A DNA stretch of 33,773 nucleotides from Chromatiales bacterium (GTDB taxonomy: Bacteria; Pseudomonadota; Gammaproteobacteria; Chromatiales; Chromatiaceae), in the NCBI GenBank assembly GCA_024762475.1, contig JANTHJ010000022.1, positions 1-33,773 on the forward strand. Reading direction: 5' to 3'. Positions 19,479-22,415 of the stretch are shown piece by piece. Under the pieces are notes generated by a model. That model worked only from the letters and a program-made list of their open reading frames with translations. It did not search any database and was not told the DNA's origin. Positions within the stretch are counted from its first letter, which is position 1, and each line of letters opens with the position of its first letter. Both the position numbers and the translations under genes were made by a program.

Positions 19479-20948
19479 ATGCAATTTATCGAAACGCGCG
19501 GCAACGACGGTAGCCGACCCGTCAGGGTGGCCTTCTCCCAGGCAATCCTCAACCCCATGTCCTCGTTCGGCGGGCTCTATGTCCCCGAGATGCTGCCCGA
19601 CCTGGGTATCGACTTCCTGCGCCGGCATCTCGACAGCGACTACAAGGCCCTTGCCCGGGCGGTTATGGAGGCCTTCAACACCGATATTCCTCCGGACGTG
19701 CTGCAGCGCGCGCTCGACCGCTATGATCACTTCGACGACCCGGCCCAGCCGGTACCCGTGGTGAAGGTCACCGACGATCTGTTCGTCAGCGAGCTCTACC
19801 ACGGCCCCACCCGCGCCTTCAAGGATATGGCGCTGCAGCCCTTCGGCGTGGTCCTGTCCGCGCTCGCCCAGGCGCGGGACGAGCATTACCTGATCCTGGC
19901 GGCGACCAGTGGCGATACCGGCCCGGCCACCCTGGAGACGTTCAAGAATCAGGCCAACGTGAAGGTCGCCTGCCTCTACCCCGACGGCGGCACCTCGGAC
20001 GTCCAGCGCCTGCAAATGGTCACCGAGGATGCACCGAACCTGAAGGTGATCGGGGTCCACGGTGCATTCGATGACGCACAGACGGCGCTCAAGTCGCTGC
20101 TGTCTTCGGATCGCTTCCATGCCGCGCTGCGCGAGCGCGATACCCGGCTCTCGGCAGCCAACTCGGTCAACTTCGGGCGCATCATCTTTCAGCAGATCTA
20201 TCACCTCCACAGCTACCTGGAGCTGGTCCGCCAGGGGGCCATCTCGCTGGGCGACAAGGTGTATCTCAACGTCCCCAGCGGCAACTTCGGCAACGCCCTC
20301 GGTGGCTACTATGCGATGAAGATGGGGCTTCCGGTCGAGAAGATCCTGATCTCGTCGAACAGCAACAACATCCTCACCGATTTCGTGCGCCATGGCCGCT
20401 ACGACCTGCGTGGACGCCAGGTCGTCGCCACCACCTCCCCGGCCATGGATATCCTCAAGTCCTCCAACGTCGAGCGCGTCCTGTTCGACCTGTTCGGCGC
20501 AGAACGCACCCGCGAGCTGATGGCGCTGCTGGACGAGCAGGGCCACTATCAGCTGAGCGATAGCGAGACCGCGCGAGTCCGGTCGATCTTCGCTGCGGAC
20601 TTTGCCACCGACCAAGAGGTGGAAACCGCAATCCGTGAGAATTTCGAGCGCGGTTATCTGATGGATCCCCATACCGCGACCTGCCTCAAGGCCCATCATA
20701 ATTGTCGCGATCGAGATCTGCCCGATATCGTCTATTCGACTGCCGAGTGGACCAAATTCTCGCCCACCATCGCGCATGCGCTGACCGGCGAGGTCGACGC
20801 CAACGACATCGACGCGCTGAAATCGATCTCGCAGGAAGCAGGTCTGTCTATACCACCGATGATCGCCGCACTGTTCGACCGGCCCATCACACAACCCACG
20901 GTGATCGACAAACAGGACATCGAGCAAGAAATCCTGTCCTTCATCTGA
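19479..20948 (+). CDS. thrC: Threonine synthase
   Basis: PLP enzyme converting O-phosphohomoserine to L-threonine. 489 aa from MQFIETRGNDGSRPVRVAFSQA; this is the long Gram-negative type with the N-terminal segment MSSFGGLYVPE. PLP lysine is K115 in GPTRAFKDMALQ; the phosphate-binding segment is AATSGDTGPATLE and a second conserved part is VPSGNFGNALGGYYA. The upstream in-frame extension to 19023 is antisense to the SLC13 gene and not used. The downstream MFS gene was probably 28 bases away before a mobile element inserted between them. Confidence 0.95.
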   Translation: MQFIETRGNDGSRPVRVAFSQAILNPMSSFGGLYVPEMLPDLGIDFLRRHLDSDYKALARAVMEAFNTDIPPDVLQRALDRYDHFDDPAQPVPVVKVTDDLFVSELYHGPTRAFKDMALQPFGVVLSALAQARDEHYLILAATSGDTGPATLETFKNQANVKVACLYPDGGTSDVQRLQMVTEDAPNLKVIGVHGAFDDAQTALKSLLSSDRFHAALRERDTRLSAANSVNFGRIIFQQIYHLHSYLELVRQGAISLGDKVYLNVPSGNFGNALGGYYAMKMGLPVEKILISSNSNNILTDFVRHGRYDLRGRQVVATTSPAMDILKSSNVERVLFDLFGAERTRELMALLDEQGHYQLSDSETARVRSIFAADFATDQEVETAIRENFERGYLMDPHTATCLKAHHNCRDRDLPDIVYSTAEWTKFSPTIAHALTGEVDANDIDALKSISQEAGLSIPPMIAALFDRPITQPTVIDKQDIEQEILSFI

Positions 20949-20976
20949 ACTCGGCACAGCCCGCCAGGAGCGGCCT

Positions 20977-21222
20977 TTGAACCTAGAATCCTCCGTTGGA
21001 CGGCCGCCAGAGTGCGGATCGCGTGGTTCCTGGCAAGGCATAACGAGGCGGAATAGTCGCTCTATTCCAACGAGTTATAACGCAGCCAGGGGCCGCGTGA
21101 TGCGTGCTCCGGTGGTCGTAGCGCGCTTCACTCAACAGGTGAGTCCGGCATTACCCCGGTTCTCTATGCCACTCATTGTTTTAGGCTTCATTCATAGCGG
21201 TCAACTGAGGATTCTAGGTTGA
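20977..21222 (+). CDS. 81-codon reading frame through the MITE-like element
   Basis: TTG at 20977 lies in the left target duplication, six bases after AGGAG, and opens a frame of 81 sense codons across the whole inserted element. Its TGA stop (21220-21222) overlaps the TTG start of the MFS gene (21219-21221). The protein is Arg/Ser-rich with no recognisable domain. It most likely results from the ancestral MFS start signals now reading into the element. It may keep translation coupled to the MFS gene rather than make a functional product. Confidence 0.3.
   Translation: MNLESSVGRPPECGSRGSWQGITRRNSRSIPTSYNAARGRVMRAPVVVARFTQQVSPALPRFSMPLIVLGFIHSGQLRILG
20982..21218. mobile_element. MITE-like element with 12-bp terminal inverted repeats and TTGAA duplication
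   Basis: 237-bp non-autonomous element. Left end CCTAGAATCCTC (20982-20993) is the exact reverse complement of the right end GAGGATTCTAGG (21207-21218); similarity continues imperfectly inward (CGTTGGACGGC against AGTTGACCGCT). TTGAA directly flanks both ends (20977-20981 and 21219-21223), as expected of a 5-bp target site duplication. No transposase is encoded. The centre holds a long nested hairpin. The parent insertion sequence is not identified. Confidence 0.8.
21029..21090. repeat. Nested hairpin inside the MITE-like element
   Basis: Three concentric perfect stems separated by symmetric 5-6-base internal loops: CCTGGC (21029-21034) with GCCAGG (21085-21090), ATAAC (21040-21044) with GTTAT (21074-21078), and GGAATAG (21050-21056) with CTATTCC (21062-21068) around the loop TCGCT. 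It can fold on either strand. Confidence 0.75.
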
Positions 21223-22415
21223 ACGCCTTTCGCCGCAATATTCCGCTGCTCGCCCTGGCCCAGGCGATCATGATGAGCAGCACCTCGCTGATGATCACGG
21301 CGGCCTCGCTGGTGGGCTATGTGCTCGCCGACAACAAGGCACTGGCCACGGCCCCACTGGCTGCCGCCTTCGTCACCACCATGCTGACCAGCATTCCCGC
21401 CGCCTGGTTGATGCACCATATCGGGCGCAAGGCCGGGTTCATCCTGGCCAGCCTGATCGGTGCCGGCGGCGCCACGCTCGCCGCCTGGGCCATCACCCAG
21501 GGATGGTTCCTCGGCTTCGTATTGGGTGCGGCGCTGGTGGGGGCCCACAACGCCTTCGGCAACTACTATCGCTTCGCCGCCGCCGACGCGGTCCCTGCCC
21601 CTCTGAAGGGCCGCGCCATCTCCTGGGTGCTCGCCGGCGGTGTCGCGGCTGCCTTCGTCGGCCCCAACCTGGCCAATTTCAGCCATGACTGGATCAGCGG
21701 TGCGCCCTTCGCGGGCGGATTCCTGGCAGTGACCGTGCTGTATCTGTGCGCCACCGCTGCGCTCTCGTTCCTGCAGCTACCGCCACAGGCGGAGGACCAT
21801 GTCGACCCCGAGCAGCCGGTCCGGCCGCTCGCCCAGATCGCGCGCCAGCCTGCTTTCATCGTGGCCCTGATCTGCGCCACCCTGGGCTATGGGGTGATGT
21901 CCCTGGTGATGACGGCCACCCCGTTGGCGATGTCGCACCACCAACACGCGCTGGGGGACACCTCCTTCGTGATCCAGTGGCACGTATTGGCCATGTTCGC
22001 GCCCTCCTTCTTCACCGGAAGGTTGATCGAGCGCTGGGGAATTGCTTCGATACTGCGCCAGGGCGCATTGATCGGGCTGAGTTGCGTGGCCATCAACCTG
22101 GCGGGCACCAGCCTGTGGCATTTCTGGGTGGCGTTGATCCTGCTCGGCCTGAGCTGGAACTTCCTGTTCATCGGCGCCACCACCCTGCTCACCCGCGCCT
22201 ACCGGCCGGCCGAGAAGGCCAAGGTCCAGGCGGCCAACGATTTCGCGGTCTTCACCACGGTGACCCTGGCCTCGCTGTCTGCCGGTGCCCTACAGCATCT
22301 GCTCGGCTGGCAGAGCGTCAATCTGGGGGTGATCCTGCCCTTGCTCATCGCGCTCGGCGCGGGCGTCTGGTATGGACGGCACGCCGCACCGGCCACGGCT
22401 ACTTCGACGGCCTGA
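21219..22415 (+). CDS. Major facilitator superfamily transporter
   Basis: 398-aa inner-membrane protein with about 12 hydrophobic helices. N-terminal half begins NAFRRNIPLLALAQAIMMS; between helices 2 and 3 it has MHHIGRKAG, a form of the MFS loop motif DRxGRR; the C-terminal half has the related GRLIERWGIASIL. The start is TTG at 21219: there is an in-frame TAG at 21195 and later ATGs would remove the first helix. The TTG lies in the right target duplication of the inserted element, whose end supplies GAGG as ribosome binding site. Substrate cannot be told from sequence. Probably once co-transcribed with thrC. Confidence 0.88.
   Translation: MNAFRRNIPLLALAQAIMMSSTSLMITAASLVGYVLADNKALATAPLAAAFVTTMLTSIPAAWLMHHIGRKAGFILASLIGAGGATLAAWAITQGWFLGFVLGAALVGAHNAFGNYYRFAAADAVPAPLKGRAISWVLAGGVAAAFVGPNLANFSHDWISGAPFAGGFLAVTVLYLCATAALSFLQLPPQAEDHVDPEQPVRPLAQIARQPAFIVALICATLGYGVMSLVMTATPLAMSHHQHALGDTSFVIQWHVLAMFAPSFFTGRLIERWGIASILRQGALIGLSCVAINLAGTSLWHFWVALILLGLSWNFLFIGATTLLTRAYRPAEKAKVQAANDFAVFTTVTLASLSAGALQHLLGWQSVNLGVILPLLIALGAGVWYGRHAAPATATSTA

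Follow-up and report, generated by a model that had tools for sequence, protein, structure and literature searches.

In a window of 33,773 nucleotides (the whole stretch of DNA analysed) from a Chromatiales bacterium, an upstream frame, labelled thrC in an earlier reading made from the sequence alone, ends at position 20948 and is followed, 28 bases on, by the first of two TTGAA copies that enclose a 237-bp element with perfect 12-bp inverted ends. The second TTGAA opens the frame of an MFS transporter gene (Table 1). Direct reading of the sequence bears out this description, and with it the claims that the MFS frame opens at the second TTG, that an 81-codon frame running through the element ends in a TGA overlapping this TTG, and that the end of the element supplies a GAGG upstream of it. 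No transposase was found within the element, only the 81-codon frame, which has no coding signal, and a Rfam-type search of positions 20900-21300 returned no known RNA family up to E=1. A single, weak sigma-70-like site lies on the minus strand (21204 to 21175, 9 of 12 positions), and we place no weight on it.

Table 1. Features of the element and its surroundings (positions in the window)
Feature	Position	Strand	Remarks
Left target duplication TTGAA	20977-20981		Direct sequence reading; TTG is probably the original start codon (congeners start at the homologous codon)
MITE, 237 bp	20982-21218		One of 8 copies in the genome
Left terminal inverted repeat CCTAGAATCCTC	20982-20993	+	Perfect 12-bp ends
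Right terminal inverted repeat GAGGATTCTAGG	21207-21218	+	Perfect 12-bp ends
Shine-Dalgarno-like GAGG	21207-21210	+	8 bases before second TTG; predicted anti-SD pairing -5.9 kcal/mol
Internal hairpin, conserved	21000-21119	+	Alignment A1 columns 19-139; many pairs kept by two-sided changes
Right target duplication TTGAA	21219-21223		TTG is the first in-frame start of the MFS frame
MFS transporter gene, 398 aa	21219-22415	+	PF07690, E 2.1e-22
81-codon frame through element	20977-21222	+	Stop TGA overlaps second TTG; no sign of a conserved gene

The element is a MITE that sits on a start codon. Its 237-bp length, inverted ends, target duplication and dispersed copies, together with an element-free site in relatives, all fit this assignment. 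The genome from which the window comes (G000) holds eight copies on eight contigs (89-100% identity), and their 5-bp duplications are exact in six copies and carry one mismatch in two. The MFS gene is present in six of the eight genomes of the genus, its own included; in the five congeners it starts at the homologous ATG, with no element, and three 12-base motifs of the element ends are absent at the gene. Only G003 and G005 also retain the upstream neighbour, as its C-terminus indicates by eye; the other congeners have a different upstream region, and the MFS gene of G001 contains an internal TGA. The sequence-only reading had proposed a MITE with a target duplication on the start codon, and had named a lone copy in a spacer conserved among relatives as the finding that would speak for a fixed intergenic region; the further copies, the element-free congeners and the IS1380-type elements with similar ends described below all support the MITE. 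Matches to the element (E up to 0.001, many of them partial) occur in 57 of 210 genomes of the family and in 8 of 55 relatives, its own genome being counted in both. Diverged copies used as queries matched 69 of the 210 family genomes (L031) and 29 of 369 genomes of the class (L015), and an exact 20-base pattern from the element had a match in one named genome, a Gallionella MAG. A plasmid collection gave no match, and in viral contigs one end pattern occurred in 1 stretch and the other in 8, with no full copy among the matches listed. We also note a 273-bp version present as three copies in one genome (L121, L122 and L123, all in G224). Other families of the class contain shorter elements, of 73-178 bp, whose ends are the same and whose target motifs are similar (L224, L228, L231, L232, L245, L249, L269 and L270); it seems that one end type is common to several MITE lineages.

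Among well-scored copies, the left duplication is TTNAA or ATNAT in 57 of 72 and the length is exactly 237 bp in 47 of 72. Among IS1380-type elements of the host family, ends like CCTAAAAAGGGCAGTTG occur together with duplications like ATGAA or GTCAA, and three of these elements (L097-L099) share CCTA...GCAGTT. These three came from weaker PF13701 hits, which were examined after the strong PF13701 loci (L065-L084) had yielded no matching ends; matches to NF033539, the IS1380 transposase, fell below the cut-off for L097 and L098 and above it for L085. No CCT-type end pair was found for L085-L087, L089, L090 or L092, and L096 and L100 had one end each only. Within G164, one PF13701 fragment extends to some 10 bases short of an end; the outer 17 bases of this end are identical to the MITE ends of L129, in the same genome, and of L118, in G163, and the other end of this element was not found. 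Further IS1380-type elements in this set have the duplications TATAA, GGATA and TATTT, all outside the motif. A search for an IS sharing the 12-bp ends, as the sequence-only reading had suggested, found none with exactly the ends of the window's element (CCTAGAATCCTC), from which the IS1380-type ends differ at several positions, and a PF13701 profile search of G000, a draft of 190 contigs, gave no match. The 5-bp target duplication is common to the element and to the IS1380 family, which includes ISEcp1 (a 5-bp duplication, TATGA, is given in the part of that report considered here; PMC2887853), but the element has no transposase and G000 no PF13701 match. In its ends and 5-bp duplications the element resembles the IS1380 type, and it is probably an IS1380-family transposase that moves it. 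Separately, in the single contig of G222 an IS1380-type transposase is present in 8 or more copies whose scores are identical (L067).

The ends of the G000 copies are typically CTGAGGATTCTAGG, and what directly follows an end is NTGAN (start codon at offset 0, spacing 8), ATNAT-G (offset 3) or TTNAA-TG (offset 4). Because the GAGG lies within the inverted repeat, either end can carry it, and ends of either orientation abut start codons (13 in one and 28 in the other, out of a set of 41 that includes short or weak frames and the orthologous pairs L040/L119 and L015/L172). Related copies have NCGG or NCCG in place of GAGG, which provides a natural comparison. When the flanks are read, six of the eight G000 copies adjoin the start of a gene (MFS, folK, an AstE/AspA-like gene, coaE, hisZ and kdsB), and for the other two the next called start is 44-55 bases away; this recurrence, like the place of GAGG within the inverted repeat, goes beyond what the sequence-only reading had described. 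The MFS and AstE/AspA-like genes start with TTG, the latter start being less certain because the domain match begins only at residue 45. For folK and coaE the family alignment starts at residue 1, for hisZ at residue 2 and for kdsB at residue 5. Within G000 coaE has a single match, and kdsB has one full match and one weak partial match (34%). In all seven congeners coaE starts at the corresponding codon (six ATG, one GTG) with the element motifs absent, and the same holds for kdsB in the three congeners in which its start could be seen. Outside G000, an element edge also marks the start of serS and rnhA, where the ends are GAGG, and of def, moaE and a PF03602 gene, where they are GCGG. At one locus (L031:4077-4311) two divergent frames, a formate dehydrogenase-like one of 906 aa and another of 122 aa, flank the element, both of whose edges carry a candidate start codon. 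At the kdsB copy in L007 (1481-1510) the element end CCTAAA provides, by eye, an in-frame stop for the upstream gene, and one insertion may therefore both end one gene and start another.

The best reading of these observations, and in our judgement a probable one, is that this is a MITE whose ends would act as portable ribosome-binding sites. According to this proposal, a non-autonomous element moved by an IS1380-family transposase would insert mostly into TTNAA or ATNAT with a 5-bp duplication, and such targets would often overlap start codons (TTG-AA, ATG-AT, ATNAT-G or TTNAA-TG). Each inverted repeat of this lineage ends in GAGG-N8, and so the end facing the gene, whichever it is, leaves 8-12 bases between GAGG and the start codon that is duplicated or regenerated. 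The native ribosome-binding site would be displaced and the element would supply a replacement of similar predicted strength, so that selection could tolerate copies on the starts of important genes. Predicted pairing with what we take to be the anti-Shine-Dalgarno letters averages -4.6 kcal/mol for the element at 36 start-abutting ends whose frames have 360 bases or more (L207 and some others being orthologous or doubtful) and -4.5 kcal/mol for the leaders that it displaced, as compared with -3.9 kcal/mol for 369 called genes and -2.4 kcal/mol for 1520 random sites; for GAGG ends it is -5.9 kcal/mol or better. Ribosomes would then use the supplied GAGG.

The positions of the copies can also be compared with chance. 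We found 188 copies, of which 153 were left after related flanks had been removed; sites were rebuilt empty, a codon model provided the gene calls, and the null consisted of the TTNAA/ATNAT sites of those loci. The gene calls are home-made: a first codon model, trained on L001-L140, failed on A+T-rich genomes and was replaced by models for four G+C classes. At a 60-base setting, 32 of the 153 copies (11 with GAGG, 5 with NCGG and 16 of the rest) were classed as interior to genes and excluded from the tables of start and intergenic sites, L142 and L207 among the copies so classed even though they abut a start codon in the outward reading (in L207 the T2SSE match lies only downstream, and the reading may be truncated); the caller also missed the starts of folK (L002) and of L003 in G000. 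Among the non-interior copies, those with GAGG ends lie on starts in 12 of 34 cases against 29 of 329 null sites (p=8e-5), those with NCGG ends in 9 of 29 against 28 of 165 (p=0.069) and those with neither in 4 of 58 against 23 of 254 (p=0.78). The direct comparison of GAGG with neither gives p=1.1e-3 at this setting and p<=0.005 at all four settings tried. At the other three (0, 30 and 150), GAGG differs from the null with p from 5.7e-6 to 6.9e-4 and from neither with p from 0.0046 to 5.2e-4, and NCGG differs from the null with p from 0.035 to 0.082, its excess being non-significant at three of the four. G000 contributes four of the 12 GAGG starts; when it is excluded the comparison becomes 8 of 26 against 4 of 58 (p=6.8e-3, counts entered by hand). 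The first model, applied to 123 copies, had placed 11 of 24 GAGG, 9 of 29 NCGG and 4 of 48 remaining copies on starts, against 55 of 754 null sites. GAGG ends are thus statistically associated with insertion at start codons, in a sample in which they are confounded with lineage and host.

A class-wide subset fetched by end pattern, and meant as a replicate, behaved differently. None of its 10 non-interior GAGG copies lies on a called start (6 further GAGG copies were classed as interior), as against 1 of 9 NCCG copies. By eye, three GAGG copies out of the 16 (L292, L225 and L294) seem to lie at starts, and L292 alone, beside a gene that we take to be leuS-like, was recovered automatically, at the loosest setting. 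Many copies in this subset are shorter (145-178 bp) and lie in A+T-rich genomes, and the GAGG effect may therefore be confined to the lineage of about 237 bp. The absence of an automated excess here is also what would be expected if the element were an ordinary TTNAA/ATNAT MITE whose motifs happen to overlap start codons, with insertions in gene bodies counter-selected and GAGG incidental. At the 60-base setting 9-17% of the non-interior null sites do have the motif overlapping a called start, the earlier model having given 7%, and copies with neither GAGG nor NCGG reach starts at the null rate. Against this explanation, GAGG-ended copies exceed their own null about fourfold, also when G000 is left out, and six of the eight copies in G000 adjoin starts; we regard it as possible but rather unlikely. 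A second alternative is steering, in which something at gene 5' ends, such as open DNA, would direct the transposition machinery towards start regions. In keeping with this, the first gene model gave an overall excess at starts (26 of 104 non-interior copies, related flanks included, as compared with 55 of 754 null sites), but copies with neither GAGG nor NCGG share the target motif and show no excess, and we consider steering very improbable. Selection rather than targeting is probably what makes the start-codon pattern.

It has also been suggested, in the sequence-only reading, that the insertion preserved translation coupling. As a property of the element this found no support, and what it describes is geometry: NTGAN, 237 bp and NTGAN again, a duplication combined with a length divisible by three, give the TGA/TTG overlap. 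A process compatible with portable ribosome-binding sites would be that ribosomes from the old start traverse the element and reinitiate at the overlapping TGA/TTG. The 81-codon frame is indeed open in the window, frame +1 is open in 40 of 127 copies where each of the other five frames is open in 1-4 of 127, and read-through would have the further effect of unfolding the hairpin described below. On the other hand, the ends that abut a start face either way, the upstream start is lost when the insertion has offset 3 or 4, and the read-through frame is closed in several start-abutting copies. Frame +1 shows no codon-position pattern, although 36 of 70 copies of 237 bp keep it open where about 24 would be expected, and a conserved small protein encoded by the element was likewise rejected on this ground. 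We therefore think it unlikely that reinitiation explains the pattern; coupling may help in the window, but it is not a general property.

The interior of the element has a feature of its own. The plus strand folds with -119 kcal/mol (z -8.3), as against a z of -4.4 for the minus strand, and a consensus of 25 copies, chosen from a list of diverse ones, has 64 pairs, 34 of them with pair-keeping changes on both sides, and an energy of -104 kcal/mol on the plus strand versus -58 kcal/mol on the minus strand. The hairpin, of about 120 bases and with no Rfam match, has many compensatory changes, and its wobble pairs are kept on one strand. From the two-sided pair changes and the strand difference it appears to be kept across genomes and looks selected on one strand; it is possibly a functional RNA or DNA structure. 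In the predicted fold of a full-length transcript the closing stem pairs GAGG with the opposite CCUC, which should hide the GAGG and makes simple initiation harder to envisage. The masking could be relieved if ribosomes translated through the element, if transcription began at a promoter inside it, or by folding kinetics.

Other bacterial MITEs, such as MITEAba12 and the TIMEs, are likewise short, with inverted ends, a target duplication and strong predicted structure. For MITEAba12, the part of the report considered here describes start codons near the ends and possible fusions with neighbouring genes (PMC6382973); in the corresponding parts of the papers on TIMEs (PMC4133298) and on pneumococcal repeats, which form reading frames (PMC3049150), a supplied ribosome-binding site is not described. 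What differs here is the recurrence of copies on existing start codons with Shine-Dalgarno-like ends. The words "start codon" and "ribosome" are absent from the main text of a 2024 review of prokaryotic MITEs, which presents Rickettsia palindromic elements as repeats that persist in genes, in-frame and compatible with translation (PMC10969869). Persistence compatible with translation is a likeness to our element, but those repeats add in-frame peptides inside proteins, and the MITE here lies at the start codon and would resupply the initiation signal. A keyword search of the open-access literature, covering titles and abstract openings, brought up no recognised description of a start-codon MITE that supplies a ribosome-binding site among the matches listed. 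The introner elements of eukaryotes carry splice sites, signals that make their insertion harmless. Such signals would be found in both cases, a ribosome-binding site here and splice sites there. We tentatively suggest, with rather less than even confidence, that the element belongs to a MITE lineage whose bidirectional portable Shine-Dalgarno ends, matched to a target that duplicates the start codon, would allow it to spread onto the starts of essential genes while these are still translated, as a translation-level counterpart of introner elements.

The finding matters for annotation because an element at offset 0 leaves two candidate start codons, and the natural variants with and without GAGG ends offer a ready comparison. 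An element that replaces the translation-initiation region of its host gene would open a niche for transposons at start codons, those of essential genes included.
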